From contig NC_092665.1 of assembly GCF_032118995.1 (NCBI RefSeq), positions 12,380,512 to 12,444,511 on the forward strand: a stretch of 64,000 nucleotides of DNA, written 5' to 3'. Numbering within the stretch: the stretch's first letter is position 1; every line of letters begins with the position of its first letter. The translations under genes were made by a program, and so were the position numbers. Of this stretch, positions 11,861 to 35,499 are shown piece after piece. The notes below the pieces were generated by a model, which worked only from the letters and a program-made list of their open reading frames with translations, did no database searches and was not told the origin of the DNA. The stretch is from Asterias amurensis (lineage: Eukaryota; Echinodermata; Asteroidea; Forcipulatida; Asteriidae).

Positions 11861-14800
11861 TTACTTGCACTGGACGTCATTACCAGTCTCGGATGCAATC
11901 CAGGGGCAGTAGTTCGTAACTCGGTTGTGCATGGCAGGGTAGTTAGCATTACCGCATTCCCAACCCCAGCTGACTATGCCAACCAGTGTGGTGGATTTGC
12001 TGTGAGAACTCTCACTATAGCCTGTCACGAGAGGGCCTCCTTCATCACTCTGTCGATGAACATAATATACAGATATAAGAGATGTTAAATTTGCGTCGGG
12101 GATCAAGAATATAAATTTTGTGTTTTTTTACCCATACACCGATGTGTGTTAGCACTGTATACTCAGTATTTTCCCGAGTCCTGTGAAAACATACCATAGT
12201 CATGTTAACTCGGTGGGATTCGAACCCACGACCCTTGCGATTCTAGAGCAGCGTCTTATCTAACTAGACTGCCGAGGTTTCCCGGTAGCTAGAGGCAGTT
12301 CGAATCCTATGTTTTGGCAGCGGGTATCGCAATTATATAAGAGATGTTGAATTTGCATCGGGGATAAAGAATATTATATATTTTTGTTGTACCCATACAC
12401 CGATGTGTGTTAGCGCTGTATACTCAGTAATACCACAAGAGACAATGGTTCTGTTAATGTGCATCCCTCCATATAAAGTTTTTTCCCCTGCACCTAAAGG
12501 CAGTGGACAATATTGGTAATTACTCAAAATAATTATTAGCATAAAACCTTACTTGGTGACGAGTAATGGGGAGAGGTTGACAGTATAGAACATTGTGAGA
12601 GACGGCTCCCTTTGAAGTGACATAGTTTTCGAGTAATTTTTCACGAATTTGAATTTAAGACCTCAGATTTAGAATTTGAGGTCTCGAAATTAACCATCTA
12701 AATGCACACAACTTCGTTTGACAAGGGTGTTTTTTTTCTTTCATCATTTTCTTCCAACTTCATGACCAATTGAGTCCAAAGGCTTGTTATTTTATGCATA
12801 TGTTGGGATACACGACCAAGTGAGAAAACTGGTCTTTGAAAATTACCAAACGTGTTCAGTGCCATTAAAAAGTGAAATTCAATGCCGTCTTGGTTGAATG
12901 AACTGAAAATTCCCTATACAAAAATGTACAGACACGCATTTTGCGTATCACGTTCCATTTACTGCCATAAAAAAAACTACTCAACACATTTTTGAAAAAT
13001 GTCAGGCATCCATCATTGACTTTGCATCCCGAATTTCATCAAGTCAGGAATGAACCGAAAGATCCCTATACAAAAATGTACAGACACGCATTTTGCGTAT
13101 CACGTTCCATTTACTGCCATAAAAAAAGCTACTCAACACATTTTTGAAAAATGTCAGGCATCCATCATTGACTTTGCATCCCGAATTTCATCAGACTTGT
13201 ACCTAGCCATCATGGGTGGATTTCGCATGTACCCAAACTCTTATAAGCGAATAGTGAGACAGCATAATCAAGTGTATATGTTATTATAGGTACTCACCCA
13301 GCATGTGTCTTTTCCAGCATTGCTCTCCGTGCAAAGCATGTTAGATGTAATATCCACGTCTGAAAATCTAGAGTTACATACATCTCTGTCAAGGATCTCC
13401 AGCACAACCTGTTGAAGGTGGTCGACCCATCCACCGTCAGCTGCAGACAAAACAGAAAATAAAATAAAAATAACAAAACACAAATCATTGATTTCGTTTC
13501 AACCTAGCGCTTAAAAGAACACATTGCCTTGGATCGGACGAGTTGGTCTGTACAAAGCGTTTGTAACCCTTTTTTATATGCATGTGGTTGGAAAGATGTT
13601 GTACAGTAGAATACAATGATCCACACAAGTTTGCCTCGAAATTGCGTGGTTTTCCTTTTACTGTGCGAACTAACACGTTCGGCCATTTATGGGATTCAAA
13701 AATTTGACTCCCATAAATGGCCGACCGTGGTAGTCGACGATGTAAAAGGAAAACCGTGCAATTTCGAGGCATGTTTGTGTGGATCATTGTATTCTACTTT
13801 TACAACATCTTTCTACCCCATGTGCATTTTATAAAAAACGGTTACAAACGCTTTTCAAAGACCAACTCGGCCAAACCAACGTAACGTGTTCCTTTAAAGA
13901 CACTGGACACTACTGGTAATTGTCAAAGACCAGTCTTTTCACTTGGTGTATCCCAACATAATTAGCATAACATAACAAACCTGTGAAAATTTGAGCTCAA
14001 TTGGTCGTCGAAGTTGCGAGATAATAATGAAAGAAAAAAACACCCTTGTCACAAGAAGTTGTGTGTTTTCAGATGCCTGATTTCGAAACCTCAAAATCTA
14101 ATTCTGAGGTTTCGAAATCAAATTCGTGGAAAAATTACTTCTTTCTCGAAAACTATACGTTTAACACTTCAGAGGGAGCCGTTTCTTACAATGTGTTCTA
14201 GGCATACTATCAACTGCTCTCCGTTGCTTGTTACCAAGTACGTTTTTTTAGGCTAACAATTATTTGGAGTAATTGCCAATAGTGTCCACTGCCTTCAAAG
14301 ACACTATTGGTATTTACTCAAAATAATTGTTAGCATAAAAACCTACTTTGTAACGAGCAACGCGGGAGAGCTGTTTGTCATGCACTGGCCCTTAGATGCA
14401 CAAAATTACAAAACGGAACTATGCCAGTGTTGGTCACGTTCCATATCGTTTGATGGGATGTTGCCATCGCTTTCAACCGACCCCACCCCTACCCCCAAGT
14501 GGCTTACATGAGATGGAGCCCCAGCCGCTAACAAGCACTTCTGTTCCACTAGGCACGTCACTCCCAGACGAAGCGATTTGTATGGTCTGGATTGTATTAC
14601 TAAGTGGAACCGCCGTGTCCAACTCGATAAGGGCGAGGTCGCCATCCAGGGTGTTGTAGTCGAACTGTGGACTCAGGTGCCATGTTCCTTTGATGATGTG
14701 CGTACCAGTTTTATCTCCCAAATCAGTGTAGCCAAGTCCGACGTAGACGGGTCCGGAACTTAAAAATGGAAAAACAGTTTCCCATCATGTTGTATTGTGA

Positions 14801-17262
14801 ACCAGAAGAAAAATAAACGGTCTTTGAAGCTTTGCATGTGTGAAGAATAAGAGTTTACTATACATAGTACAGTTGCGGGTAATGGTACAACCTAAACATG
14901 TGGACAAGATAGCAGTACTTAATACCGTGGGTTGAAGAATGGTTTTTCGAGGTTTCAACCTCGTACAACGAGGCACGAGGTAAACAAACCTCGAAAACCT
15001 TGCTTCGACCCCACGGTATCAAGTACTGCTATGTACCGTGCAGTATAGTATCTATTATGCAGTTCGTGAGCGGGCCGGTGCTTGCGTAAAGAGCCTTGGA
15101 CATTGCTATACTCTCCGAATCTCCCCGCGATTCCCGCGGTATTCTCGCGAGACTGCTGGCCCCATGAGACTACTGCTGTCACGACTGCGATTCTGTTCAA
15201 AGTAGCCTTTAATCAAGGCGCATGCCGCGCAACCAGCAGTTCGCGCGATAGCAGTGATCTCGCGAGAGCACCGCCACAACTCGACTATCTCACCGCGGCA
15301 GACCACTAACGAATTGTCCACAAGTCTAGTACAACCGTGTGTCAAATCTCTTCAGAGAGATAGAGAGTGTTGGCTCTGAAAAAAAACCGGTGTGGTCAGA
15401 CGTCTCGACGTTTCGAACAGTATACTGAAGAAAAGTATAACTATAAAAAGTAAACATTGTGTTAAAGGGTCTATGTAACTTTTATAGGACAAAAAAACAC
15501 AATGTCCACAGATTTACACTAAACTTACACAGTTTGAAGATCATGATAGTAGAAAGCTTCCCTGAAAACATTACGTGCTGAGGTGCTGTAGTTTTTGAGA
15601 AATGAGTAAAACAATGTCATGACAATAATTTTCGTCTCATGAGACGAAAATTATTTTAATCATTTACAGACGTATTTTCATGACATTGTTTTACTCATTT
15701 CTTAAAAACTACAGCACCTCAGTAAGTAATATTTGAAGGGAACCTTTCCACTATCATTATCTTAAAACCCTGTAAGTTTAATGTAAATCTATGGACATTT
15801 TGAAAAGGTACCCAAATCCTTTAAGGAATTTGATGTATTGCATGATGAGGTATAAGTATGGTTTACGATAACTGTTATGTTTGAGATTACCATGTGGGTA
15901 TCTATATACTCGGTAGATTCTTTTGAGAAGTTGTCTATAGTGTCTGTTGACCTTTATCACGGTGTGGCCATCTTGATTTTACTTCATTCCAACTCATTGT
16001 AACCAAACTGAGGCTGGACGAATTAATAGTCTGGTACCATGTTTGCGCAATGAATGTTAGCATTCATTACTGTTATGGAAACAGGAACATGAACACAGCG
16101 TGATAAAGGTATATTGTACTTACTCGACGACACAATTTCCAGCCGATACCACCCACTTTGGATGAACAAGGGTACCGCTGCAGTAAGTATCGTAAGAGTT
16201 TGCCGAGTAGAGAATTGACGCATGGTAAGGGCGACTACCAACGGGAGCATCGCTGCCCCCAACAATGCGCTTAAAAGGCGGTAGCCTTCGTGCTGCTGTT
16301 AACCAAAAATAAAAATAAAAAAACGTTAAAATACACTGTACACTATTGGTTATTGCCAAAGACCAGTCTTCTCACTTGGTGTATCTCAACACATGCATAA
16401 TAACAAACCTGTGGAAATTTGAGCTCAATTGGTTTTTGAATTTATGAGAGAATAAAAGAAGAAAAGAATCGCCCTTGTTGCACATGAGTTGTGTGCATGA
16501 TTTCGAGACCTCAACATCTAATTCTGAGGTCTCGAAATCAAATTCAAATATTTTTAGTGAGAAATTATTTCTTTCTCAAAACGTGTACACTTTCAACAGC
16601 TCTCCATTGATTGTCCCAAGTTTAGTTTGAATGCTAACAATTATTTTGTTATGAGTAATTACCAAATAGTGTCTAGTGCCTTTAAAGACAGTGGACACTA
16701 TTGGTAATTACTCAAAATAATTATTAGCACGGAACCTTACTTGGTATTAACGAGTAATGGGGAGAGGTTGGTGGTATAAAACATTGTGAGGAACGGCTCC
16801 CTCTGAAGTGGAGTAGTTTTCGAGAAAGAAGTAATTTTCCACGAATTTGATTTCGAGACCTCAAGTTTAGAACTCGAGGTCTCGAAATCAACCATCTAAA
16901 CGCACACAACTTCGTGTGACAAGGGTGTTTATTCTTTTATTATTATCTCGCAACTTCGACGACCAATTGAGCTCAAATTTTCACAGGTTTGTTATTTTAT
17001 GCATATGTTGAGATACACCAAGTGAGAAGACTGGTCTTTGACAATTACCAAATAGTGTCCAGTGCCTTTAATACAATAACAGCGAAAGAACAATCAAACT
17101 CAAGGCATTTAAACAACACATGCACATTATGTCAAATTCAAACAAAGTATAAGATTCAATTGAACTAAAACAAAGAAATATATATGAGAAGTTTAGGGTA
17201 TGGCATTCTGAGTTCTTACCAAGGGCAAGCGAGAGGCAAGCGAGAAACACAGCAATCTTCAT
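11861..17262 (-). CDS. Secreted S1A serine protease homolog 1, catalytically inactive
   Basis: Five exons: 17262-17220, 16295-16124, 14758-14508, 13440-13298, 12049-11861, total 798 bp (265 residues plus stop). A signal peptide occupies about residues 1-16 (MKIAVFLACLSLALA), with activation site KR-IVGG at 24-28. The trypsin fold is shown by CSGTLVHPKW, DLALIELD, LVSGWGS and VGIVSWG. Of the triad, the His57 position is Asn68 (SAGNC), Asp102 is kept (Asp112), and Ser195 is Glu206 (SDEGGP). It therefore cannot be a normal serine protease. Cys pairs 42-58, 168-182 and 191-220 are kept, and an extra pair may involve the C-terminal ETGNDVQC tail. Asp189 is retained (KDTC). Exons are intact with good splice sites, so the gene looks functional as a pseudoenzyme. 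Binding or regulatory roles are known for other serine protease homologs; this one's role is unknown. Confidence 0.9.
12058..12450 (-). mobile_element. tRNA-derived SINE1, one full and one partial copy
   Basis: The tRNA-like head is read on the minus strand near 12205-12290 (box A TAGTCTAGTT, box B GGTTCGAATCC). The body continues to a tail containing CCCCGAcGCAAATTTAACATC that ends beside exon 5 of protease homolog 1. A second, partial tail unit follows at about 12330-12450. Both lie within the last intron of that gene. Confidence 0.8.
12494..12869 (+). mobile_element. MITE family A copy
   Basis: Nearly full-length copy in the last intron of protease homolog 1. After it, 12885-13185 holds a direct duplication of about 155 bp (ATACAAAAATGTACAGACAC occurs at about 12915 and 13067). 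Confidence 0.8.
12885..13190. repeat. Two-copy direct repeat, period about 152 bp
   Basis: The block CCCTATACAAAAATGTACAG through TGACTTTGCATCCCGAATTT is present twice in a row with almost no changes, indicating a recent duplication inside the last intron of protease homolog 1. Confidence 0.8.
13508..13896. mobile_element. MITE family J, large palindrome
   Basis: Arms of about 190 bp fold on a centre near 13700 (GGCCATTTATGGGA on one side, TCCCATAAATGGCC on the other). A half copy lies at 35948-36147. It occupies the third intron of protease homolog 1 and is non-coding. Confidence 0.8.
13894..14385 (-). mobile_element. MITE family A copy followed by a fragment in the other orientation
   Basis: A full copy (13894-14298) ends in GTCCACTGCC. 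It is followed at once by a truncated copy starting ACACTATTGGTATTTACTC (14299-14385) that stops just before exon 3 of protease homolog 1. Confidence 0.75.
14909..15033. mobile_element. Short foldback element
   Basis: Inverted arms of about 55 bp (AGCAGTACTTAATACCGTGG against CCACGGTATCAAGTACTGCT) around a GAGGTT-rich centre. It lies in the second intron of protease homolog 1. Confidence 0.7.
15462..15824. mobile_element. MITE family C, near-perfect palindrome
   Basis: Arms of about 180 bp fold at CGTCTCATGAGACG near 15644. The outer ends read TTAAAGG and CCTTTAA. It is non-coding and lies in the second intron of protease homolog 1. Confidence 0.8.
16326..17071. mobile_element. Head-to-head pair of MITE family A copies
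   Basis: A minus copy (16326-16685) and a plus copy (16681-17071) meet at a shared CCTTTAAAGACAGTGG junction, giving a 745 bp inverted arrangement in the first intron of protease homolog 1. Confidence 0.8.
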
Positions 17263-17511
17263 GATGGGACGAGAGAGTATTCGGGTGATGGTGCACAAAG
17301 ACTGGACAGCTCACAACAGTGGTAATAATCTGGTTGGACGCCTCTCCATTTATCCGTGTTTTCGAGCTCAAAGGTTTCAAATAATGTCGTGTAAAACGGA
17401 CAGATGTGGAGTCTACAATGATGATGGCACAATTAACTTGATAGGATATTATCAGAAAGTTTTTCGGTCATTAGATAACAATTTTGAACACAAAACACAG
17501 CCGACTTGCTT

Positions 17512-18009
17512 TTTAAAGACAGTGGACACTATTGGTAATTACTCAAGATAATTACGGGGGATGGTGGTGGGAGGGGCACTCACCAAAATATCACCATGAA
17601 TATTCTCACAGGAATCTCGATGAGGCCTGAACTTTAGTTGCAAACTTGTTATTAAAGGCAGTGGACACTATTAGGAATTACTCCAAATAATTTTTAGCAT
17701 AAAACCTTACTCGGTAACGAGTAATAGGGAGAGGTTGATAGTAAAAAACATTGTGACAAACGGCTCCCTCTGAAGAAAGGTAGTTTTCGAGAAAGAAGCA
17801 ATTTTCCACGAATTTGATTTGGAGGCCTCAGATTTAGAATTTGAGGTCTCGAAATCAAGCATCTGAAAGCACACATGCAACTTCGTGTGACAAGGGTGTT
17901 TTTCTTTCATTATTATCTCGCAACTTCGACGACCGATTGAGCTCAAATACACCAACTGCGAAGGCTAGTCTTTAACAATATTGTTACCAATAGTGTCCAG
18001 TGTCTTTAA
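17512..18009 (+). mobile_element. MITE family A: short fragment plus full copy
   Basis: A 45 bp start fragment (17512-17556) is followed after about 95 bp by a full copy (17651-18009). 17263-17511, upstream of protease homolog 1, holds no recognised gene and should contain its promoter, but I see no clear TATA box. Confidence 0.75.
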
Positions 18010-18239
18010 AAAGTTTGTTTCATCAGTCTGTTGAACTTTCACAGCATGCTGAACAATCAATCTATCTATCTGATGTCAACTTAAACAAATGAGTTGCAAC
18101 ATGCCTTAAGATAAGTCTCACATTGCGACATTTTTGGGCACGAACAACTTATCACTGCTTATGTAGTGGCATTCAAACCGATAAGTCAAAATAACAAAGT
18201 AAGAGACACTAGGTCTACGATTGCTATAAGCACAATCGC

Positions 18240-18470
18240 CCAAAGGTCATTTTGAGAGCGCCAAAGTCAAAAGTTTGTTCTAAGGCGCTGAGGCAGCGTT
18301 GAACGGTTTAGTAAGCTTGCTTGGAACAGGTGAGCTTTAAGGAGCGTCTTGAATGAGGTGAGTGAGCTGGGATTTCTGATCTGTGTAGGAAGCTTATTCC
18401 ACATACGGGGAATGATTTCTCTGCAAAAAAAATGAATAGCGAGTTCTTGGCACAACAAAAAGGGAGCAAG
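18240..18470 (-). mobile_element. LINE 3' fragment (non-LTR reverse transcriptase C-terminus)
   Basis: The minus-strand frame reads RMWNKLPTQIRNPSSLTSFK then LLKAHLF. This is the typical end of CR1/L2-type ORF2 proteins (LWNSLPxxIRxxxSLxxFKxxLKTHLF). It is followed by a GCGCC-rich 3'UTR remnant. Only the last 60 or so codons are present. Confidence 0.75.
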
Positions 18471-19606
18471 ACACTATTGGTAACTACTCAAAATAATTGT
18501 TAGCATAACAATTACTTGGTAAAAGAAAAGGAGAGTTATACAACATTGTGAGAAACGGCTCCCTTAGCGTAGTTTTCGAGAAAGAGGTAATTTTCTACTA
18601 AAATATTAGAATTTGATTTTGAAACCTCGGAATTAGATGTTGTGGTCCCGAAATCAAGCATCTGAAAGCAGACAACTTCGTGCGACAAGGGTGACTTTTC
18701 TTCCATTATTATCTCGCAACTTCGACGACCAATAGACCGATTGCGCTACCAATGTTTACATGTGATCACGTGAACTATAGTGGGTATAGAAAAACACAGC
18801 TACACAGTAAAGACATGGGAAGATTCGTACCGATGGACCATAATCGGCAGCCGTATTTTCAATAAATAACACTAACTAAAAACGGAGCCCTTTTTATAAA
18901 GTTGAATATTGTGACAATGATTTAAATCACTTTGTTGTTTGGTGTTCCCAGTAGTCTACTACAAAAGAGGTTTCTTTTGAGTGTATGGTTAATAGACTAC
19001 GTAAATTACTGAGGTTTGAGCGAGCTCACGCACCGTGGATTTTGCGTTATGCACGGCGGGAAGTTGGGCTGTGATATGGGAGATCGCGAAGTTGTCCGAC
19101 TCATAGCTGACAGCTATCCCTTCTAATCAAATATTTTGAGGGTGAAAATAATGATTTGCAGCTTCTTAATGAGATTTTTATTGAAAATATTGGCAGCAAA
19201 ATCATTACAATAAATTAGGCACTGTGAAACCACACTTTCCGTGCTCAAACACATGACATCGTGTGAAAATTCTCTTGGAAATTCCTATTTGGTGGAACTG
19301 TGTTTACCCATACTGGCATTGTTCAGCCACCGGTAAGGCATCATGTTACAAACTCCGGAATATTCTTCAGTGATTTCGAGAATTTAGTCCTTTTTTGAGC
19401 AAAAAATTGCAACCGGTAATCGTTTCTTTTTAACGCACGTTTATATCAGTAACGCCGTGTTTGTTTACATCCAATACCTACGGAGCGCAATCGGTCTATT
19501 GAGTTCAAATTTTCACAGGTTTGTTATTTTGTGCATAATATGTTGAGATACACCAAGTGAGAAGACTGGTTTTTGACAATTTACCAATGGTGCCCATTCT
19601 CTTAAT
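18470..19606 (+). mobile_element. MITE family A copy split by a nested TIR element
   Basis: The left part (18470-18730) stops after CTTCGACGACCAA, and the right part (19498-19606) resumes with TTGAGTTCAAATTTTCACAG. The missing joint is filled by a different element described separately. Confidence 0.8.
18731..19497. mobile_element. DNA transposon-like insert with TAGACCGATTGCGCT ends
   Basis: 767 bp. The terminal inverted repeats are TAGACCGATTGCGCT and AGCGCAATCGGTCTA, with further similarity inward. They interrupt a family A MITE. The TA at both ends suggests a TA target as in Tc1/mariner-type elements, though this is uncertain. No transposase frame is visible, so it is non-autonomous. Confidence 0.75.
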
Positions 19607-20012
19607 GATTATGGGGTCTTTTATCAATGGAAACACGGATCCTGCATGCTAGAGGTTTGTCAAAAAATAAATTGACAACCTCATTACAGAAATGTTTAAG
19701 AAAAGGGAATATCCAATTCAATTCAATTAATGTTTTCAATATCCCAAAAAGGGTAATTCAAACGCTTGCATACAGTAAAAAGTAGAAAAAATTGCTACTT
19801 CATAGCCACAGAGGACAAAACAAAAAGAGAAAACAACATGTAATGTACAGTAAACAATGTATTGTTTTTATTCAATGTTGGCACCTTATAGTTGGACTGG
19901 CTCCAGTTATTGTGAAGGGGTAGAATGGACCCAGATGATCTTATAAGAAGAAGCTGGTGGTGAGATGTACAACTTGGTAGAAGGTTAAATAAGGGAATCA
20001 ATGCGTGGTGAA
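19607..20012. other. Intergenic stretch, no gene seen
   Basis: AT-rich sequence with no convincing exon, transposon end or RNA gene. Confidence 0.5.
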
Positions 20013-20136
20013 GTGGTTTTCAACTAGTGGTTTAGTCCCAACGAGGCCTGGTTCTTGATATCTTACCGAGACGAAGTCGAGGTAAATTATAAAGAACCAG
20101 GCCTCGGCGGGTTTAAACCACTAGTTGAAAACCGAT
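20013..20136. mobile_element. Short foldback element
   Basis: Arms of about 50 bp (CAACTAGTGGTTTAGTCCC and GAGGCCTGGTTCTT, with inverted partners) around an ATATC centre. The following 20137-21180 shows no gene; the GC-rich part at 20230-20540 is unexplained. Confidence 0.7.
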
Positions 20137-21189
20137 TCAACACACTTTGATGCCATTCATAAATACCTTTTCGGTCAAAAACATCATCACTTTTTGGTCA
20201 TAAATTAAAATAAAGTAAGAAACTTCGTAAAACTTATCCGTTTTCCCGACGTCCTTGAGCTATGTACGTGTGTTGCATTTTTATGACTGAGACCGTTTTC
20301 GGATAATATTATTCTTCGTGCGCGTAGTTAGTCTCGGTGCAAGACGTTTCTCGTTTTCCTTTCACACACAGCGCGGCCAACTCACCAACAGCGCCCGCAT
20401 AGCCCGTAACGAGAAATGTTTTGCACCAAGACAAGCGCGTATAGCATTCGAAAACAAGCGGTTATAAACAGAGCCCCAGCTGGTCATTATCAACCGTTTA
20501 AACACCCCATCTGACGCGCTCTCCACCAAAAGGAATAGCGAAACTGTCTGAGTTAGTTATGAATGTTTTTTTAACTGCCCCTATAGGACCTTATTTAATA
20601 ACAAGTTTGCAACGTAAGTTCAGACCTTATCGAGATTCCTGTGAGAATATTCCTGGTGATATTTTGGTGAGTGCCCCTCCCACCTTAACCCCCGTCATTG
20701 CGAGGTCTCTGCCCCAGGCCCCAATGTGAGACTTTTGGTCAAATAGTTGCAGTAAACTTACTAGGGAACTTCACTGTTGTTAGAAATTTGCGCACGTTGA
20801 GAACTATACTTTACAACAAAAACTATTAATAATATAAAGTTTGCAACCGAAGTTTTGTGCTAAAGATGCGTGTCATTGCTTTATAAGTTATGTATCTGGA
20901 ACGTTGGTGATCTGCAACGTTGCTAACCGGTCACAAGGACCGGTAAAGAGGTAATGATATCTAAAATTATTATATGTTATCAATATAGAAAGTGTATACA
21001 TAATGCTATCTGCAATAAATGTTATCAATATGGAATGGAAACCAGCATCTGGAAGTTCCAGTTTGAAGCTGAGTTTATAATTAATAATGATGTTAAGAGC
21101 AGCTGATCTACAAGATTACAACAAAAACATTATAAACAACTTACTTGTTAAACTTCAATAGGTCTTTCATTTCCACATCTTAATGACAC

Positions 21190-21335
21190 ACATGGTTTTC
21201 TTTTAATAATAATATAATAATAAATAATACATTTATACTATGAGGGAGTGAATTCCAGAGTTCAGGAGATTCAACCTGAAAAGCCCTTTGCCCATAAAGC
21301 TTTTGAAGATTCGGGTATTTTTTATTCCGCCTAGA
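21190..21335 (-). mobile_element. LINE 3' fragment
   Basis: The minus strand reads LYGQRAFQVESPELWNSLPH, the hallmark C-terminal block of CR1/L2-type non-LTR reverse transcriptases. An AT-rich (TAAT-rich) tail follows at 21200-21235. Confidence 0.7.
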
Positions 21336-21467
21336 CAACAACATGAACATGCCTTAGATTTGCATTACTGATGATTGCTAACGATGGCATTTGAGTCGCT
21401 AACCCTTTAATCACACACTGATCGGTCACTCGTTCCTGAACTAATCGGGGACAGTTCTGACTCACTG

Positions 21468-21708
21468 TGGGTGCGTTCGATTTGCTTCCCTGTGTCGACC
21501 CCGCGGTGCTCATTCGGGTGAGCCCCTGAAAAGAGCTAATCGAACGATCACTCGCCCTCTCGTGGCGACGTCATGCACCTCGGGCCAGCCCCACGTGACC
21601 CCTTCAACATCCAAGGCACTTGGGGCTGACCGGGGTGATGAGCCCCTGGAATGACGTCAAAGCTATTAGAACGTACCGGGCAGATCGGGGAAGCTTATCG
21701 AACCCACA
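21468..21708. mobile_element. MITE family D copy
   Basis: About 240 bp, same structure as 9990-10226, with GTCGACCCC and GTGAGCCCC blocks and inverted TTCGAT/ATCGAA ends. Confidence 0.7.
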
Positions 21709-21854
21709 ATGATGCCTGGCGTGAGACACCGTTACATTGACATATACATAAACGGCATGTGTCAGCTCAGCGACGCAAGGAAGAGTTACAAACGAGATGA
21801 TGGTTTTTCCTCTTCATGGGTATTTATCTTCACTGTGCGGTATAGGCCTACCCT

Positions 21855-21965
21855 GATCCCAGGCCTGTACGCTTCGTTTTTGAAAGGGCAAGGGCACCAA
21901 GGCGATTTCTCCTAAGTAAAAGCCACCCCATGAGGATACTGTTGATAAGCACCAAGGGCAGTGGG
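21855..21965 (-). mobile_element. MITE family G fragment
   Basis: Reads CAGGCCTGTACGCTTCGTTT then GGGCAAGGGCACCAAGG, one end of the element that forms a tandem array at 52.8-54.4 kb. Confidence 0.6.
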
Positions 21966-22261
21966 AACGGAGGCAATCGCAATCGCTACCTCCGTAAAGT
22001 TTCAGACCTGCGCTCTGTGCCAACTGACAAAAACAACAACATCGAGCGGGGGAGGGGCTGGGATGCGGGGCCGGGAATCGGGGGAGCGGGGGAGTGCCAG
22101 ATATTGGTCCAAACATGTAGTCCTAATGTTATCAGTATAATAAAAAAAAAAACATGTAAACCAGCATCTGGAAGTTTCATGTTGAATGTGTTTTTATATT
22201 TCATCAGAGGGCGTGTGAGTCACAACACCGATAACTATTAACTGGTCAGTGTGCCTATGTC

Positions 22262-23290: not shown

Positions 23291-23294
23291 ATTG

Positions 23295-24559: not shown

Positions 24560-25160
24560 TTGATATTGGAGTCGGAGCTTTAAACACCATTTTTTTTACG
24601 CAAAAAACTATGAGGTAAACAAAACTGAAAGGTACACAATGTTCTTTTTGCGGACAACAGAATAATATTCGCACAGTGTGTTTTTATTGCTCTTGCTACA
24701 TCTTTCGAAAATCAATAGTTGACTATAATTTTATTTCAACCATTTAAAGTTAACAATGAATACCACCACGAACTTGCAAGTTCACTTGTTTCCATAGACA
24801 GCTTTAAAGTTAATGCAATTAGCCTGGCCTTTACCAAATTTGTCTTTATTACATTTTCTTACCCCAAAAATTCAACAAATGTCAAAATCGTTTTTCAAAG
24901 TAAGACTTGAGCGCTTTTATGGTGCGTCTCAGGTAAGACGAAAGTCACCGTTGTGTGGCTTTTTATACGGAGACCAAACAAGTACAGACGGAAAACTTCT
25001 GGTCAGAATTTATCCGTATAACGGGGTCCCGTTTGGCCCGACACTTCTCCAGGTCCTTATAACTTGGAGTCGTGTCAAAATGACTCAGAAACGGGTCAAT
25101 TTGAAGCAGAATACCGCTTAAAAATCCCATTTTTAAAACTACATTGTGGGTCAGATTGAC
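24560..25160. repeat. 3' flank shared by protease homologs 2 and 3
   Basis: Blocks such as ATAACTTGGAGTC, AAAATGAC(A/T)CAGAAACGG and AATTTGAAGCAGA occur in the same order here and at about 31790-32010. They mark the duplicated unit extending beyond the coding parts of protease homologs 2 and 3. Confidence 0.6.
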
Positions 25161-25339
25161 CTAGAAGTGGGGCAGGCCCCCATCCAGGAAACCTACAATC
25201 CAGGTTATTATTATTATTATTATCATTTTTTAGAGTGTAAGGAATCATTTGTTATCTCCACCAATCCACACTTCTACTTTGACACTCTGGACAAGTTTGA
25301 TCAAGGGACTAAAGTTGACTATGGGGAGGGGGACTTTGG

Positions 25340-25450
25340 AACGCTAGGTGGCAGCAGACTTACCAGGTAAATTTCCATTTACGTAGTTCTTATCATGCGC
25401 ACATTACCGAGAACATTGGATTTTACCTGGTAAGTCTGCTGCCACCAAGC
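25340..25450. repeat. Inverted pair of GGCAGCAGACTTACCAGGTA motif
   Basis: GGCAGCAGACTTACCAGGTA at 25351 is answered by TACCTGGTAAGTCTGCTGCC near 25427. Single copies of one arm are seen near 26465, 33893 and 34380, all around the protease homolog genes. It is probably a small MITE. Confidence 0.65.
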
Positions 25451-25595
25451 GTCCCTAAAGGCTCCCAATGTCGACCATTGGGCGATTTTACCTGGTATAC
25501 CCAGAATGTATTTCATGCATAGGTAACCATTGAACACCGCCTAGTGGTTAACAACATGGTCGCTGATCGGACTTGACCCTGTACGACCCCTGTTC

Positions 25596-28500
25596 TTAAT
25601 TGCAATGGACATCTCCGCCTGTCTCGCTGTCAATCCAGCCGCAGTGGGCACTAACGCGGGTGTAGAGCGACGGGTCATCGATGGCCTGGCAGGCGTGACC
25701 TCTCACCGCTAAGCCTGCAAGAACCTCAGTGCCGACATAGCTGTTTTCGTCGTAATTGGTCACTGCAGGTCCGCCATCGTCACCCTGGTGATAAAAGCAT
25801 AAGTTATTTGAATTTTTTGGAAGTAATCAAGGCAAAGGCCGTGTCCGAAACGGCGACTTCAGCTACAGCTACGGCTAGATCAGCGCATCTGTCAGTGTTG
25901 ATGTTGAGTCAGACGCGCGCGATCTAGCCATAGCTGTAGCCGAAGTCGCCGTTTCGAACACGCCCGGCACTTCTGTGTTAGTGCCGTGAGTTCGATCCCC
26001 ACCACACACTCATGACGTCTGGATATCCCCCAAATGGATAGTAAAAAACACCAGTAGACTGTTAATCCCCGACAATTTTCCTCTTCAATTAATTAGGCCG
26101 TGTCCGAGTAAACCTTCATCACGGTGCAGCCGTCTTGCATTTCTCCCATTGTTATCGGTGTTACCAAACCGAGGCTGGAAGAACAAAATAGTTTGGTTCC
26201 TATTTTCAAAATGATTATAAGCATTCATAGTCTTAACGAGGATTATGACCAAAATAGAGAGGCAGTTGTGCAAAGTCTCCCGGACCTCGGATATGCAAAT
26301 GTGCACTTTTATAACAACAAAACTGTACTTCGCCTACATCGACAGTCTCTCTAAATAAGGGTCTACATAAGCATATTTTTATATATGCAGAAAGTTTCAA
26401 ACGATTGTCTTTAAAATAAAATACTCCCAGGTCAGAATGGAGGACTTTTGGGACGCTTGATGCCAGCAGACTTGCCATGTAAAGTTCCGTGCTGGCATGC
26501 TGAAAACTACAGGTGCATGCCGTCACCACGAGAGGGCGAGTGTGCTCGTTCGACTAGCTCTTGTCAGGGGCTCACCCGAGTGAGCACCGCGGGGTCGACC
26601 CAGGGAAGCTAATCGAACGCACCCTTATACATAAACAATAGAGCTTTTCGCAATTACCCATTGAGCAAGCACAAGTTGTTGAATGGGGGGCATGCTGGTC
26701 TAGCTAGGGATCAAACTTGACTGCTAGCTAGACCAGCGTGCGCCTCACTCGACGTATTCAGCGCACGTACCGAGTATTTGAGGCGGGGTTTGACCTATAG
26801 GCTGATGGCAGCTCTCTTACGTAAGTCACGAGCCTCGATGTGTGACGTCATATGTTCAGGCTATTACACATATCGCCACTAGAGGTGGAGGGGGCAAGGA
26901 ACAGAATCTCAGGTAGGACGTCAGAACCTCCTAAAGTCACATGGGGTAGTTCTGACAGTTTTGTTTATGCAAGAAAGTTGCCAGACACATAAGGCCTGAA
27001 GGCCACTTCAAGGCGTGGGCTACGATTTATTTCACAGGGGCCGTTGCTACCTATTCCTGTGGCTGAAACAGGGTTACCCCCTTTACAGTCCATATGTACA
27101 TGTATGTAGGGACATGTACATGTATGTGGAGTGTAAACAAATAAACAAAATTAATGACACAAGTTTGAACCAAAGTGTATAAAAGTGTAAATTTGTCCTC
27201 ACAGAACAGAAGTCGTGATCGGTGTGATCGCTGCATATCAGGGTATCGTCGACTTGGATGACGTACTGCTTGATACACACATCTATGTGGCTGACTGTGA
27301 TTAGGCTCTGCGCCAAGTCTACGGGCAGCTCGCCACCTTCTGCAGTGATATAAAAAAAAAAAAAAAAAATGGGTCAACAATTTTCCAGACAAAAATAATG
27401 AAAGTAAAAGTTCGGGCCAATAGTCAAAGTGTATAAAATCATAAAAACGTTGATGCTCCACCTATCACCATAGAAAAAAAGCCAAATATGAGATTGCAGT
27501 AAAAAAAAAAAAAAAAAAAACTAAAAACACATTAACACAGAATGTGTAGGTCCTATAACCATTGGCTGTCTTGCCTAAAAGCAGGCTCACTTATTGAAAT
27601 ACCGTACGTTGGTTTCATGATGTTTTGCTTGTTTTTTTTTTTTGTCGGGGTGTTTGTGAGTAGGTATAATACAGAGGATAATAAAATCAACGGTTCTGGA
27701 AAGTTCCACAGTTGGAAACATGTACAAAACCAATGGGAGCTTTTGCCAAAAAAGTTACGAGTTCAAACAAACGAAGGACACTAGGAGGTCCACGATTGCA
27801 GGCATATACATGCTTGTTTACGTTTTTTCTTAATAACTTACGCTTGGTTATTCCCCAGCCGCTCATGAGCATTTTAGTGTCAGCCGCTGGTGTACTGTCC
27901 TTTTTAGGCATGTTAATGATTTTTATTCTATCCGAAAGAGTCACCGGTGTATCCAATTCAATCAGGGCGATATCGTTGGCGAAGGCCGGGCTGGTGCCGT
28001 AATCGGGATGTCTGTGCCAGGTACCATGGACGACCACAGCTCCGTCAGAACTGTCATCTTTCAACAGGTTGTAGTATCCAAGCCCGGCATGTATATTGTC
28101 AGCGTTGCTTAGTTAAAAGACAGACAAGACAAAAACTTAGCTCGTTAAAGCCATTGGACCCTTTCGGTACAGAAAAAAAAAAGTTCACAGATTTACAAGT
28201 AACCAGGGTTTACAGAAGGTAGTGGTGAAAGACTTCTCTTCAAATATTATTCCATGAAAAGCTTTACTTTTTGAGAAAACAGTAAAACAATATCAATTCT
28301 CGATATCGAGAAATACGGATTTATTTTAAACAAATGTCATGACACGGCGAAACGTACGGATACAAGGGTGGGTTTTCCCGTTACTTTCTCCCGACTCCGA
28401 TGGCCGATTAAGCCTAAATTTTCGCAGGTTTGTTATGTATAGAAGTTGTGATACACGAAGTGTGGGCCTTGGACAATACTGTTTACCGAAAGGGTCCAAT

Positions 28501-30416
28501 GGCTTGAAAGTGTTGTGCTCATTAATTGAGCACCGAATTCAAACTCTGGTGTTGCTGATCAGCAGAGTGTGGGTTCGAATCCCCAGCCGTGACACCTGTG
28601 TCATAAAGCAAGACGCTTAACCATTGCTTCGTCCTTCGGATGGGACGTAAAGCCGTTGGTCCCATCTGTTGTGTAAACGCATGTAAAGTGCACAGTGCAC
28701 TTATCGTAAAGAGAAGGGGTGCGCCCCTGTTTTCTGGCTGGATTGGCAGCATATTGCGCCACGCACCATTTTATAATAACATAATAACAACAAATAAATA
28801 TATAAATGAAAAATAAATTTAAAGGCATTGGACACTATTGGTAATTACTCAAAATAATTATCAGCATAAAACCTCACTTGGTATAAACGAGTAATGGGGA
28901 GAGGTTGATAGTAAAAAACAGTGTGAGAAACGGCTTCCTCTGAAATGACGTAGTTTTCGAGGAAGAAATAATTTTCAACAAATTTAATTTCGAGACTTCA
29001 AGTTTAGATTTTGAGGTCTCGAAATCAAGCATCTGAAAGCACACAACTTCGTGTGACAATTATTGGGTGTTTTTTCTTTCATAGTTATCTCGCAACTCAA
29101 ACGACCAATCGAGCTCAAATATTCACAGGTTTGTTATTCTATGCATATGTTGAGATACTTTAAGTAAAAAGACTGGTCTTTGACAATTACCAATAGTGTA
29201 TAGTGTCTTTAAACCCATGAGTCAGTGTTGATTTAGAAAGAACATAGTAAATGACACACACCCGACACAAAAACCGGAGGTGAGGACCCACTTCGGGTGA
29301 ACTAGAGCCCCGCCACAGAACTGATCCAATGAACCGCTGCTGTACAAAATAGCGGCCATGTACGGGCGACTACCAACGGGTGCAACATTTCCCCCTGTCA
29401 AACGCTCCTCTGGCTGCCAGGCTGTAAAAAAAAACCTTATGATGATCAAAGAATTACTACATCGGACCTGATACTTCACAGAGACAGTGAAGGCGATTGC
29501 CTCCATGCCCCGTGGTTACTGCCCTGGTGCCCTTGAAATACTCCTTTACTGAGGACAAAAAACCTTGGTGCCCTAGCCCCATTTCAAAACGAAGCAAATA
29601 GGCTAGCCTTGCTCAAGGCAGTCGAATTATTCACTCCGAAAAAAGACCGCCGCTGTATAAGAACCCAGCCGTATTCACTGTGCGTAAAACCCACCCGTAT
29701 TCACTGTGCGTAACATCGCACGACACGATGCCCCCGTACACTAACCGCATGCGGAGGCCGTCAGGCCGACAGCCTTGTAGGATCTGTGTTGAAGCCACTG
29801 ACCTCATTTCTATAATAAGCGAAGAGTTCCCACGGTCAGCTCATTACCATAATGCCCGCGAAAGATGAGACATGTCTACATCATCACACACCACCACAAC
29901 GGACGCTCAGCGAGCATGATAGGCGTGTGTGATTGGACGTCAAAATGAATAATTCATTTGCCTCACATCCTGTGTTGTCTGATAGGTCTGACGAACGATA
30001 TACATATTCATGAGCTGCATACTAGCATTTCCTAGAGCCCCCCCAATTTCGTCCACTATTGGAATTTTTTCAATACAACACATTAAAACGGGAAGATACA
30101 GATCCGACAAGGCTGTCGGCCTGACGGCCTCCGCATGCGGTTAGTGGTGTACGAGTGCGATGACTTGTGTGAACAGTATTCGTGCGATGTGACAGTGTGT
30201 ATACGGGTGGGTCATTCGGTGTGATCGCACACACCATACACAGGGTATATGGCGGGTGGGTTTACAGCTGCGTCTTTTCGGAGCGAATAATGCGACTGCC
30301 TTGAGCAAGGCTACAAATAGGCCTGCTAAATTGTGACAGACTGCAGTAAACTGAATTCGGTATCATAACTTACCTAAAGCCAAGGCGATACAGGCGAGGA
30401 AAACGGCAATTCTCAT
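25596..30416 (-). CDS. Secreted S1A serine protease homolog 2, catalytically inactive
   Basis: Exons 30416-30374, 29421-29262, 28107-27842, 27339-27203, 25784-25596, total 795 bp (264 residues). The signal peptide is MRIAVFLACIALAL. The activation region is ER-LTGG (residues 20-25), so the usual Ile16 is Leu. Fold landmarks are FCGGALVHPKW, NDIALIELD, MLMSGWG and SLYTRVSAHC. The triad is Phe65 for His57 (TSGFC), Asp113 kept for Asp102, and Asp205 for Ser195 (GDDGGP). It is thus non-catalytic. Asp189 of the trypsin pocket is retained (DFCSGDDGG). The final exon is 189 bp in all three paralogues and carries an extra Cys pair with the tail ETGGDVHCN. The donor after exon 2 (GG|GTGTGT) is weak but phase-consistent. 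It is the closest relative of the gene at 32198-35499. Confidence 0.9.
25838..25966. mobile_element. Short MITE with GGCCGTGTCCGAAACGGCG ends
   Basis: TIRs of about 50 bp (GGCCGTGTCCGAAACGGCG, GACTTCAGCTACAGCTACGG and inverted partners). It lies in the last intron of protease homolog 2. Confidence 0.75.
26520..26624. mobile_element. MITE family D half copy
   Basis: Contains GAGAGGGCGAGTGTG, GGGGCTCACCCGAGTGAGC and GGTCGACCCAGGGAAGC in family D order. Intronic in protease homolog 2. Confidence 0.65.
26985..27095 (-). mobile_element. SINE2 body fragment
   Basis: The minus strand matches the SINE2 body at 53000-53130: GGCCTGAAGGCCACTTCAAG and CTGAAACAGGGTTACCCC. The tRNA-like head is absent. 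Confidence 0.6.
28147..28508 (+). mobile_element. MITE family B copy
   Basis: About 360 bp, starting AAAGCCATTGGACCCTTTCGG and ending CGAAAGGGTCCAATGGCTT as TIRs, with an inner CTCGATATCGAG palindrome. Other copies are at 61355-61735 and 63550-63755. It lies in the second intron of protease homolog 2. Confidence 0.75.
28510..28815 (+). mobile_element. tRNA-Leu-like SINE
   Basis: The partial head ends in GGGTTCGAATCCCCAGCC (box B) followed by GTGACAC. The body contains CTTCGTCCTTCGGATGGGAC and GGCTGGATTGGCAGCATATT, and the tail is AT-rich. The 5' part of the head is missing. Confidence 0.7.
28818..29213 (+). mobile_element. MITE family A copy
   Basis: Full-length copy directly after the SINE and before exon 2 of protease homolog 2. 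Confidence 0.8.
29500..29600. mobile_element. MITE family G fragment
   Basis: Contains GCGATTGCCTCCATGCCCCG and TTGGTGCCCTAGCCC from the family G consensus, in the first intron of protease homolog 2. Confidence 0.55.
29602..30314. mobile_element. Long-TIR element, large copy
   Basis: The same ends as 10821-11158 enclose about 710 bp. The arms (about 175 bp) run from GCCTTGCTCAAGGCAGTCG to the GGCCGTCAGGCCGACAGCC region. The centre (about 29780-30105) holds an extra segment with its own inverted AGGATCTGT / ACAGATCC borders. No transposase is visible. Confidence 0.7.
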
Positions 30417-30680
30417 GGTGGCTGGAAAGAAGACTAGCTTTCAGGTGATGCATGCAGGACAAGCTGTAACAATGTGGAGTGCCAACATGAAATATACACC
30501 CGTTTTATCGTACTTTCCAAGTCCAGGGTTCCACATTTCGTCTTGTCAACTAAACAGCTGGCCCAGCCGTCATTGGAGGAGGTAATCTGCCGCGCTGTAT
30601 ACGTGCGCAGATAGGAAATTGAGACAAGATATAACAAATGAATAAACATGTTGATAAATAATCTAGACCTAGTCGAGAAA
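30417..30680 (-). promoter_or_regulatory. Upstream region of protease homolog 2, duplicated at homolog 3
   Basis: From the start codon outward this region aligns with 35500-35765 (shared CTTGTCAACTAAACAGCTGG, CATGGTGGCTGGAAAGAAGA). The TATA position has degenerated to TATACA (about 30603-30598). Confidence 0.55.
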
Positions 30681-32197
30681 CAATTGTGACGGCATTTTGA
30701 TGTTTTTTGTTTTTTTGTAACAGATAAGCTCGAGCCGTAGATCTAGATCTAGATCTAAACTATCAGTAGGTCAGGATGAGAGACTTAGAGGTTGAGGAGT
30801 TGATGTTGGGGCCTTGGTTTTAGTCAGCAAAATGCTGATTTATAAGCAAAATCATCAACTCACACACAATATTGAGAACTCACACCGAGAAGTTCCTTCA
30901 ATCCCCCCCCCCCCCCAAAAAAAGAGCTGAGACATGAGATTTTTTCTTCCACTGTGAAAAAACGGCCCCGATAAGCCCATCCGGTATTCACTGCCCGCTT
31001 TTATATCCAATCTATTCAACCCGGTACATTCCACAAGAGAAACACTCTTCACTTAAGCACAAAATTTCCTGCTTCCGTAAGCGCCGATTCCTTGCTTAGC
31101 AGAGCTCTGAAATTCGGCCCTGGTTGTACAGAAATAGTGATATCATTGGATACAATGGGGATGTATTACAGTACGCCTACATGATGGGGGGATTGTATAA
31201 TAATACATACAATTATGTTTTATACATGACTTGTGTACTTACAAGTTGACTGCGAAATGAATGCGATCATAAACGGTATAGCACGTACAGTCACCGATGT
31301 CCTAATACACATTACTGAAAAACGCACAATAACATTTTCTTTTTCCCGGAAACCAAAATGCGTACTTTTGTCAATGTGGGGAGGTTTTTCAGTTGATCAC
31401 AGTCGTGTCTTGTGCCGGTGTGGCAGGAGATTCTGCGCCCCCCCCCCCCCCCCCTCTCCGCCCTCAATGTAATGAACTGTATACAAAAAAAAACCGTGTG
31501 ATAGCGCCCTCTGTTGAATCTTCCTCCTCCAGGGGACAGATTTCCCTGTACCTGTTTAGTGTTTCCTAAACTGTGTCGGTAGTGTGTCTCGCTTGTTTAA
31601 GGTGTATCTTTAAAATTATACAACACATTAACAGCTCCAGTTTCAAATTGCGATATCATGATCGGCCTACGTCGGAAAGAAAAGTGGAATGGTTCATTGT
31701 ATTTGGGAACAAAACACTAAAGTCTTTTTGTTGTCCCCCTTTTTTTTTGGGGGGGGATGTATTTTGGGGGATGGGGTAAGGAACCAAACATCATTATTTT
31801 AAGCAAAAACTGAAAAGTACACAAAATTACACGGTATGCGTTTTATTTATCTCTCTTGCAGATTAAGCATTTAAAATCACATTATAACTTGGAGTCTGTT
31901 TTAAAATGACACAGAAACGGTTAAATTTGAAGCAGATAAAAGACTTTAAATCAAAACAAGATTCTTTGTCAGCTTAACCCAGAAGCGGGTCAGACAGCCC
32001 GTGGGACAAAAAATAAGCATTTAAAACTTATGCTCATGACATCATTCGTCAAGGGCGCCCTCTTTACTTACCCAACATTCGATTCGATTCTGACCAGTTT
32101 TGTATTAATTAATACCTTTAATTTGTGTAGAGTGTTAGGAATTGTGTAATCTTCAGCAGGCCACACCTCTTTCTGACCATTCTTGGTGACTCTATTC
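30681..32197. other. Spacer between protease homologs 2 and 3
   Basis: No gene is seen. It contains a C-tract near 30904-30916, a partial copy of the GTAAGCGCCGATTC-type MITE E at about 31060-31126, a C-tract at 31437-31454 and a G-tract near 31749. From 31790 it holds the duplicated 3' flank shared with 24560-25160. Confidence 0.55.
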
Positions 32198-35100
32198 TTA
32201 ATTACATTGGACATCGTGGCCTGTCTCGCTGTCGATCCAGTCGCAGTGCGCACTAACGCGGGTGTAGAGCGACGGTTTGTGGTCGGCTTTGCAGCTATAG
32301 CCTTTAGCCACTAAGGCTGTAAGAACCTCGGTACCGTCAGAGCTGCTTTCGTCGTAATTGGTCACCGCAGGTCCACCATCGTCACCCTGGAAATAAAAAA
32401 CATAAATTGTTTCAGTATTATTACATTAAAGGCACGGGACACGTTTGGTAATTGTCAAAGCAGTATTCGCAATAATTAATTAGCAGGATACCAGCCGCAA
32501 AAGGTAGGCTACATATTTTGACGTAGCACTATGGCTGGTAACCTTATTCTGTTAGAAGCAAAATTGTTGTGGTTATAGCTTCTTTGTTTGTGCTTGAGCA
32601 GCTCTATGAAATTGGGGACAGTATTCTCAGCTGGTTGTATCACAACATAATTATCATAAAATAACAAAGTAAGAACCATTGTGCTTCGACAATTATCTTT
32701 ATGCCCTTAACTCGGACTTTATGTTAGTTTGATCCATTAATAGATAAATTTGACACAAATTCGGGATCATCCCGACCCATCAAGAATAAGGTCAGACGGG
32801 TTCAAAATACAAACTTAGGGCCAAACGAGTCATTGTGTATAGCATCTCACCTGACAAAAGTTGTTAGTAGAGTCACTGCAAATAATGGAATCATCCATCT
32901 GGATTTTGTCATAATGGGCGCGGCAAACACTTTTCAAGTCGCTCGTTGTAACTACCGTCTGTGACAACTCATGTGACAAGCCCCCGTCAACTGTGTAACA
33001 AAGTATAAAGGATTGGTTATTTCAGACAAAAGTTACCGAAAAGGCCTTGACAAAAGGCTAGACTGGAGAAAGGTTTTCAACTATTATTTGTTTTTGTGTA
33101 CAATCCATCAACTTACCCGCAGAAACTCCCCACCCACTGACGAGCATGGATGTTCCAATCGCTGGTTCACTGTCTTTTTTAGGCATGTTAATGGTTTGTA
33201 TCCTATCCGAAAGAGTCACCGATGTATCCAATTTGATCAGGGCGATATTGTTGGCATAAAACGGAGTGAAGCCATAGTTTGGGTTGACGTGCCAGGTACC
33301 ATGGACTATTTCAGTTGCATCAGAACTCTCATACAGGTCGTAGTATCCAAGCCCGACGTACACATCGTCACCATAGCTTTGAGAAAGACAATGTTAAAAA
33401 TGTTAGCTGGTGAAAGGGTGCCTCTTATATAGAATATTAGGCTTTGAGGTCTCGAAATCGAGCATCTGAAAACACACAATAACTTCGTGTGACAAGGGCG
33501 TTTTTTCTTCCTTTATTATCTCGCAACTTCGACGACCAATTGAGTTCAAATTTTCACAGGTTTGTTATTTTGTGCATTATGTTGAGATACATTTAGTGAG
33601 AAGACTGGTCTTTGGTAATTGTCAAAGACCAGTCTTCTCACTTGGTGTATTGACACCTTTGGTAATTGTCAAAGACCAGTCTTCTCACTTGGTGTTTCTC
33701 AACATAATGCACAAAATAACAAACCTGTGAAAATTTGAACTGTCCAGTGTCTTGAATGCGCCTCGGCACCTTGTAAACCCTAGAAGGTGCCAGCCCACAC
33801 ACATGTCTCATTAAATAATTCAAAAACCTGTCTTACAATTTGTATGTATGTCCAAGTACCTTGAATACCCACCCTATACGTGGGCTAGGTGGCAGCAGAC
33901 TCCTCAGCTCACAGGTAAATGTATAATGCTTCTTACAAAAATATTTTCCAAACCACGGTCTCGCCGCTATAGATTCGCGTCAGGCTAGCTTGGCCCCGCC
34001 ATTGTAATGACAATGTTGTTTTGTATACGTGCTAGTTTAGACGAGAGAACAGAGCCTGAAGCCGTCCAAAGCCGAAGCGAGGGGTGGGGGGGGGGGGGGT
34101 GGGGGTTCGTAAACAGTATTACCGAGAGCAATGGGTTTGCTTCGCTCGGCCCCAGCGGCCAGCGTCTATCCAGGACCGCTGGGATAGGCTAATCAGTTTG
34201 GGCAGATTCTTGACCAGGAAGTACGTCATGCGAACAGTGCATAGCAGTGTGAGCGTGATGCATGGGACTGAGCATTTTTCGGGATATACCAATGAGCGTG
34301 CTTGATAAGTTTGCCCATACCAGCGCCTTTGGTTAAGGCAAGGTGCTGGGGACGGGCGAATGGATTTGCCGGCATTTGCCTGGTAAGTCTGCTGCCACCT
34401 AGCGTCCTAAATGCTCCCAATTGAAACTTACTTGGCACATGTTGCGGAAGTGACGACCCAATCTTTGTGAATTAGAGCCCCGCCGCAAACTACCGACAGC
34501 TGATAATCGTCTCGTAAAATAGAAGCCATATACGGGCGACTACCCACGGGTGCAAGCTGGCCTCCTGACACACGCTTCTCTGGCTGCCAGGCTGTTAAAT
34601 AAAACACTCTTAAATATTAATCAAAGAATATTGTAGGCCTACCATTGAAGGTGTCCCAGGGAATTCTGTCAGCCGGAGATTCAGCACCCCATAAATTATA
34701 AGGGAAATAAACATGGGCTGGAGGAGGATGATTCAAAAGAGGGCGCTATCAGAAGAAGTTTGTACAATGTTTGGCATATGGAGAAGGACCGAACTTCCGG
34801 GGGAACATCTACTGCCACAAAGGCAACTACTCTTCAACGTTGGGTTTAATGTTTGAGAGATGTCCGCACATCGAGCAATCCAATTTATCATAACAAAATG
34901 GGCAACTGTGGGCGAACAGGGGGTTATAGGCGCCTTCCTACCAAACATAGCCCACTGTAAGCTAGCCCAACAACCTTAAGACGAAGCCTATAAGCCTGGG
35001 CTTAGAAAAAGCCTAATTTTTATATAAACAACAGATAGGCTTCAGGTCATGCATTCAACCTTATATGTTTCGGTTTGGAGTTTACGAGTGTGTAGCTGAA

Positions 35101-35499
35101 AGGCACCGTTTCATTTCAGGATAGAAAACCATACAATAAACGGTAGAAAGTTCAAGAATATTATTATTGAGGTGACATAGTCATTCGTCCTAACTTTATG
35201 CGACATTGCGTAATATGGGAATAGTGTTAAAGGTTTGGTCGAAGATCGTGATACGCGGTAATTACTCAAAAACTAACGACCCAAAGATAGGCCTTGGCCG
35301 GGAATCAAACGAAAGGGCAACATTATAGGCTTTTGTCAAGGCCTTCGCTGCTCTCCAAGCCACGAAGGCCTTAAAAAATGGCTTCAATGATGAGAGAGGA
35401 AGGCGCTTTACACACTACGTGGTCATAATGTCAACAAAGAATTAGGCTATACTTACCAAATGCCAAGGCGATACAGGCGAGGAAAACGGCAACTCTCAT
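32198..35499 (-). CDS. Secreted S1A serine protease homolog 3, whole triad lost
   Basis: Exons 35499-35457, 34591-34432, 33376-33117, 32990-32851, 32386-32198, total 792 bp (263 residues). The signal peptide is MRVAVFLACIALAF. The activation region is KR-VSGG (residues 20-25). Fold landmarks are VCGGALIHKDW, NNIALIKLD, MLVSGWG and SLYTRVSAHCDW. The triad is Thr65 for His57 (TSATC), Asn111 for Asp102 (ANNIAL), and Asp204 for Ser195 (GDDGGP), so all three catalytic residues are replaced. Asp189 is Asn (NNFCQGDDGG). The reading frame, exon phases and signal peptide are all intact, which argues for selection on a non-enzymatic function rather than decay. The C-tail is ETGHDVQCN with an extra Cys pair. 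It is a recent duplicate of 25596-30416 including promoter and 3' flank. Confidence 0.9.
32426..32700. mobile_element. Degraded MITE family A fragments
   Basis: The start AAAGGCACGGGACACGTTTGG and later traces (TGTATCACAACATAATTATC, AATAACAAAG) are family A-like but heavily diverged. They lie in the last intron of protease homolog 3. Confidence 0.5.
33440..33765. mobile_element. Rearranged MITE family A fragments
   Basis: A right-half copy (33440-33615) meets two short left-end pieces in inverted order, with AATTGTCAAAGACCAGTCTT repeated at about 33616 and 33664. This is a local duplication or inversion in the second intron of protease homolog 3. Confidence 0.6.
33950..34105. repeat. Degraded GC-rich inverted element and G-tract
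   Basis: GTCAGGCTAGCTTGGCCCCG and GAACAGAGCCTGAAGCCG match the element at 11640-11780. It ends in a G-rich tract at 34083-34106. Confidence 0.55.

Follow-up and report, generated by a model that had tools for sequence, protein, structure and literature searches.

Haptoglobin is a vertebrate protein that keeps a dead S1A domain, and paralogues of this inactive type are known from insects, mites and mammals. Azurocidin is an inactive S1A homologue in some mammalian lineages (PMC7914634). The serine protease homologues (SPHs) of arthropods are S1A proteins with at least one catalytic residue replaced, and in the honey bee the Ser195 motif contains Gly in five of 13 SPHs (PMC1761132). The inactive serine protease paralogues of the scabies mite (SMIPP-S) form a multigene S1-like family without proteolytic activity that acts by binding; the S1 subsite is blocked, and inhibition depends on a site elsewhere on the molecule (PMC4031079). 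In magnetotactic bacteria, MamO contains a degenerate protease domain with non-catalytic roles in partner activation and metal binding (PMC4794232).

We analysed a 64,000-nucleotide stretch of DNA from the sea star Asterias amurensis (contig NC_092665.1, positions 12,380,512 to 12,444,511), called the window in the following, with three neighbouring S1A genes, A, B and C. Like the arthropod SPHs they have replaced catalytic residues, but residue 195 is Asp or Glu instead of the Gly of the honey bee proteins. Set beside these SPHs, A, B and C have Trypsin as sole Pfam domain, and no second Pfam family was detected at E ≤ 0.001. Azurocidin and haptoglobin resemble the sea star genes in having kept a dead S1A domain; they are vertebrate proteins and the likeness is one of kind. 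MamO differs in being bacterial and in binding metal at a surface di-histidine and not at an acidic residue 195. The nearest functional analogy, judged by its description, is SMIPP-S. This is a complement-binding mite family, whereas in the sea star family, apart from A, B and C, the catalytic triad is kept in 13 of the 16 full gene models. A comparison of C with solved structures matched 531 distinct sequences (E ≤ 0.001), with procarboxypeptidase A-S6, proproteinase E and trypsin as best-listed structures, and no SMIPP name occurred among the 60 of the 531 matches that were listed. Word searches of the open-licence literature revealed, among the matches listed, no serine protease homologue with a GDDGG or GDEGG motif and no inactive S1A protein in echinoderms. 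A further paper (PMC7815109) was set aside as a comparison because it concerns cysteine protease paralogues. The acidic residue 195 of three adjacent genes and the rebuilt cleft of two of them, B and C, are unusual compared with the S1 exons of this genome that were read.

Gene models and active sites of A, B and C

Splicing of the window DNA resulted in three S1A genes on the minus strand with five exons each. They extend from position 11861, the stop end of A, to position 35499, the ATG start of C, exactly as delimited in the first-pass annotation. The genes are adjacent, have one orientation and are located at 12.39-12.42 Mb of the chromosome. Using GT-AG splicing, the predicted open reading frames comprise 264 (A), 264 (B) and 263 (C) amino acids with no frame break, the intron phases are 1, 2, 1, 0 in all three genes, and each exon 1 consists of 43 bases and encodes the signal peptide. 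The predicted splicing has two caveats, a NAGNAG acceptor at exon 2 of A and a weak GTGTGT donor after exon 2 of B. Chymotrypsin numbers were assigned from an alignment of A, B and C with their relatives. In the following list the first exons are taken from the spliced models, exons 2 to 5 from the models and the codons, and the flanks from pairwise DNA alignment.

17220..17262, minus strand: gene A exon 1, start codon and signal peptide
16124..16292, minus strand: gene A exon 2, propeptide ends KR, then IVGG; Asn at 57 (SAGNC)
14508..14758, minus strand: gene A exon 3, Asp102 kept (GDLAL)
13298..13440, minus strand: gene A exon 4, Asp189 kept, Trp192
11861..12049, minus strand: gene A exon 5, SDEGG (Ser193, Asp194, Glu195) through stop
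30374..30416, minus strand: gene B exon 1, signal peptide
29262..29421, minus strand: gene B exon 2, ER, then LTGG; Phe at 57 (SGFC)
27842..28107, minus strand: gene B exon 3, Asp102 kept (NDIAL)
27203..27339, minus strand: gene B exon 4, Asp189 kept, Phe190, Ser192
25596..25784, minus strand: gene B exon 5, GDDGG (Asp195), VRG replaces Ser214-Trp215-Gly216, through stop
35457..35499, minus strand: gene C exon 1, signal peptide
34432..34591, minus strand: gene C exon 2, KR, then VSGG; Thr at 57 (SATC)
33117..33376, minus strand: gene C exon 3, Asn at 102 (NNIAL)
32851..32990, minus strand: gene C exon 4, Asn189, Phe190, Gln192
32198..32386, minus strand: gene C exon 5, GDDGG (Asp195), AKG replaces Ser214-Trp215-Gly216, through stop
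30417..30678, minus strand: 5' flank of B, conserved with the flank of C
35500..35766, minus strand: 5' flank of C, conserved with the flank of B

The Pfam Trypsin profile (PF00089, 220 positions) matched A over positions 1-220 and B and C over positions 2-220. The scores of 167.3, 135.9 and 134.5 bits (E-values 5.7e-49, 2.4e-39 and 6.4e-39), compared with a cut-off of 20.6, place all three proteins in the S1A fold, and each mature protein contains eight Cys. Profiles of exons 2-5 run against the whole window gave three matches per exon (E ≤ 0.01), one each in A, B and C, and revealed no further S1 exons in about 9 kb on either side of the cluster. These data bear out the earlier description of a cluster of three intact S1A genes, in which frames, signal peptides, exon phases and structural Cys are preserved.

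Alignment and codons identify the residues at 57/102/193/194/195 as Asn-Asp-Ser-Asp-Glu in A, Phe-Asp-Gly-Asp-Asp in B and Thr-Asn-Gly-Asp-Asp in C. The His57-Asp102-Ser195 triad of an active peptidase is absent in all three proteins (N/D/E, F/D/D and T/N/D), and the motifs SDEGG, GDDGG and GDDGG, each with an acidic residue 195, were confirmed as first annotated. Starting from an AGY codon for Ser, each of the observed Asp or Glu codons requires at least two base changes. The oxyanion-hole Gly193 is kept in B and C and replaced by Ser in A. Asp194, which pairs with the new N terminus in active S1A enzymes, is kept in all three. An Arg is located directly before the mature N terminus in each protein (KR/IVGG in A, ER/LTGG in B, KR/VSGG in C), and residue 16 is Ile, Leu and Val, respectively. 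The cleft of A has kept Asp189 and Ser214-Trp215-Gly216 and contains Glu219 and Ala226; the clefts of B and C contain VRG and AKG at 214-216, Phe190, and Ser at the place of Gly226. The mature proteins A, B and C have pI values of 4.40, 4.69 and 4.53 and net charges of -16.7, -16.3 and -16.6, and only L018 and L023 are equally negative among the 16 relatives computed.

Relatives in the genome and residue 195

Protein searches of the whole genome (491.5 Mb, 23 contigs) with A and B as queries showed that the relatives whose exons are most similar lie on the chromosome that carries A, B and C, at 10.74-11.15 Mb and 16.20-16.21 Mb. In the 20 stretches read there, 18 genes were recognised, and the other strand of L019 contained two short fragments. 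Full models were obtained for 16 of the 18 family genes; the models of L012, L021 and L028 were corrected by hand, and that of L012 contains seven Cys and ends in an unusual C terminus. The remaining two genes, L024 and L025, look broken, in contrast to the intact A, B and C. In L024 the frame is broken in exon 2, and an exon 5 was found neither in L024 nor on the same strand of the adjoining stretch L023. In L025 no exon 4 was found between exons 3 and 5, and the 4.9 kb read upstream contained no exon 2, which may sit further out. Apart from the 13 full models with His/Asp/Ser, L016 and L018 have Gln57 together with Thr195, and L020 has Gln57 alone. In the whole-genome searches with A and B, no nearly identical duplicate carrying a normal triad was detected.

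To judge the frequency of an acidic residue, position 195 was read in 67 other S1 exons or fragments, which represent a subset of the S1 genes of this genome. The residue is Ser in 61, Thr in three, and Asn, Ala and Gly in one each; Asp or Glu was found in none of the 67. The census consists of 45 further S1 exons (42 Ser, Asn in L057, Ala in L063, Thr in L068), the intronless genes L001-L004 (all Ser), 17 family exons (15 Ser, two Thr) and one of the two L019 fragments, which is exon-5-like and has Gly in a GDGGG motif. The 45 exons were drawn from a search in which 150 of 252 candidates were scored, which listed a part of its matches and favoured well-scoring exons, and other divergent genes may be missing.

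Several additional observations were made in the relatives. The Thr195 codon of L016 and L018 is ACT, and Gln57 occurs in L016, L018 and L020, which are located at 10.86-10.92 Mb of the chromosome. L019 is intact and groups with L016 and L020, and L018 lies outside this group; this pattern suggests gene conversion or repeated loss as candidate explanations. Gly193 is replaced by Tyr in L023, His in L025 and Gln in L026; the triad of L023 and L026 is normal. A replaced Gly193 together with a normal triad is reminiscent of human mesotrypsin. The two exon-5-like family fragments on the other strand of L019 are located near 7016 and 8949 and suggest a further remnant or a divergent gene. The intronless S1 gene L002 on contig C2 has Asn for His57 and a normal GDSGG motif. 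For exon 3 of L021 and exon 4 of L028 a GC donor was modelled at the conserved place.

Selection on B and C and the origin of the acidic residue

A scripted codon model was run for 14 gene pairs. For B and C it yielded dN 0.328, dS 0.691 and omega 0.475, and omega = 1 was rejected (2dlnL 15.4, one degree of freedom), which refutes a value near 1 for this pair. Six other family pairs with dS < 1 had omega values of 0.226-0.450, and L023/L026 had 0.126 at dS 2.05. Because omega of B/C is just above those of the six pairs, the constraint on these genes is at the loose end and may be relaxed. In the six remaining pairs, including A-B, A-C and A-L028, dS was too high; dN/dS for A was abandoned due to this saturation with B, C and L028.

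At the DNA level, B and C align in blocks of 74-81% identity over exons 1, 2, 3 and 5 and about 260 bases of the 5' flank, the flank and exon 1 forming one alignment of 320 columns with 80.9% identity. For exon 4, no DNA alignment passed the threshold applied. The only alignments between introns, of 189 and 77 columns, both lie in intron 2 and consist of copies of a dispersed repeat, which is also present in and near A. Copies of about 300-400 bases are located at 12495-12869, 16681-17071, 17652-17949 and 28818-29213 of the window, the last being 78-87% identical to the other three. The 3' flanks of B and C align over 120 columns with 73% identity, and the 3' flank of B matches an intron of C over 48 columns with 92% identity. 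A promoter common to A, B and C was considered and rejected, as B and C were the only pair with a long alignment among seven flanks. The 5' flank of C matched the flanks of L023, L026 and L028 over at most 31 bases (E > 0.04), no match to the flank of A or L027 was listed, and the flanks of L027 and A share a 35-base match (E 2.5e-11).

In a neutral simulation with substitutions only, the coding sequence of B was still open in 8 of 4000 runs at 0.345 changes per site, which is half of the B/C dS. At 0.1, 0.2, 0.5 and 0.69 changes per site, 422, 67, 1 and 0 of the 4000 runs were open. The run of 13 identical residues around Asp195 in B and C was discarded as evidence, because it was reached in 2737 of 20000 shuffles. 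As Asp195 is common to both genes, the simplest reading is that the ancestor of B and C was already dead and that the constraint therefore acted on dead genes. Because of omega, the conservation of exons and flank compared with introns, and the low neutral survival, B and C are very probably selected pseudoproteases, and A is probably one as well. The initial claim that all three are selected and not decaying is therefore supported for B and C, while for A the evidence consists of the intact frame and the Cys residues.

The origin of the acidic residue was analysed with a tree of 21 proteins, from which columns 57, 102 and 193-195 had been removed and L012 was omitted. B and C are sister genes (support 100/100). 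A joins them with low support (62/32, 66% of 200 bootstrap trees), and six alternative groupings of A or of B+C with active relatives were not rejected (p-AU 0.257, 0.432, 0.48, 0.132, 0.289 and 0.146). L016, L018 and L020 are located inside an 11-gene clade that excludes A, B and C (support 100/100). The triad was lost in at least two separate lineages beside active paralogues, A/B/C and L016/L018/L020, and for this reason the dead and active paralogues on one chromosome are a good place to test selection on the replacement of Ser195. Residues private to A, B and C were rejected as support for a single origin: there is one such residue, and single rows of the alignment share up to two with B and C (L016 two; L011, L013, L023, L001 and L004 one each).

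An ancestral loss of Ser195 followed by drift at His57, as first proposed, fits B and C with their common Asp195 and different residues 57; for A it was not established by the phylogeny. We consider the chance that the acidic residue arose in the common ancestor of all three as somewhat above even. The best tree unites A with B+C even without the triad columns, the genes are adjacent in one orientation, and every independent event would cost the base changes described above. The low clade support and the surviving groupings argue against it, as do the single private residue and the identity of A to L023, L026 and L028 (49, 49 and 48%), compared with 40 and 42% to B and C. With a real but smaller probability, Ser195 was converted to Glu in A and separately to Asp in the ancestor of B and C, the acidic residue being useful after loss of catalysis. 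This is compatible with the weakly supported tree and the similarity of A to some active genes, with the different residues and neighbours in SDEGG and GDDGG, and with the census, where six exons or fragments have lost Ser and none became acidic. It requires two rare multi-base changes in adjacent genes and is not called for by the best tree. Since the genes are neighbours and each replacement needs two or three base changes, we slightly prefer one origin over two. If the acidic residue arose twice, this would suggest that the former active site has been put to a specific new use.

Possible roles of the pseudoproteases

By analogy with the described systems, the most likely role of A, B and C is that of secreted, activation-cleaved, non-catalytic binding proteins. 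The signal-peptide exon predicts secretion, and a trypsin-like enzyme would cut after Arg15. The new N terminus would then insert against Asp194 and produce a fold like that of an activated protease which is unable to cut. In the compartment of the active paralogues such a protein could bind as partner, decoy or cofactor. As a whole, the explanation of A, B and C as secreted S1A pseudoproteases that act as non-catalytic binders appears reasonably probable, and a single origin of the acidic residue is compatible with it. Since the cleft of B and C is rebuilt (Ser214 lost, Trp215 exchanged for Arg or Lys, Gly226 for Ser, and Asp195), these two proteins probably do not bind in the way that a canonical substrate is bound. 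With Asp189 and Ser214-Trp215-Gly216 kept, although beside Glu219 and Ala226, A may still hold a basic ligand or inhibitor.

Other explanations are less probable. It seems unlikely that the acidic residue 195 itself is a gained function, reached twice independently, which would form a putative charged site for a cation or a basic partner in the old cleft. Such a site could consist of Asp195, Arg or Lys215 and the altered 57 pocket in B and C, and of Glu195, Asn57 and Asp102 in A. A recent inactivation, with A, B and C on the way to pseudogenes and the frames still unbroken, would agree with the slightly elevated omega of B/C and with the two relatives that look broken; we consider it quite improbable, because a dS of 0.69 and a common Asp195 indicate a long dead period during which the B/C frames stayed open, omega = 1 was rejected, few neutral frames survived in the simulation, and the introns of B and C diverged more than the exons. 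Errors of assembly or base calling in active genes have a very small probability. The data come from a single assembly, but each gene contains several independent substitutions, the codon changes involve more than one base, the frames are intact, and further changes are found at cleft residues.

Two observations concern other elements of the assembly. Window positions 37823-37869 (minus strand) and 37955-38001 (plus strand) contain an opposed pair of histone 3' stem-loops just above the Rfam cut-off. COX1 is present on contig C23. Read with translation table 9, this copy has AAA at Asn positions, AGA at a Ser and TGA at a Trp that are conserved in animals, which corresponds to the mitochondrial code of echinoderms and flatworms. 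Two more copies are located on the nuclear contig C5 at 658874-660214 and 675294-676634, on the same strand and 16.4 kb apart. This distance is about one mitochondrial genome length, and the pair suggests a tandem nuclear insertion or an assembly join.
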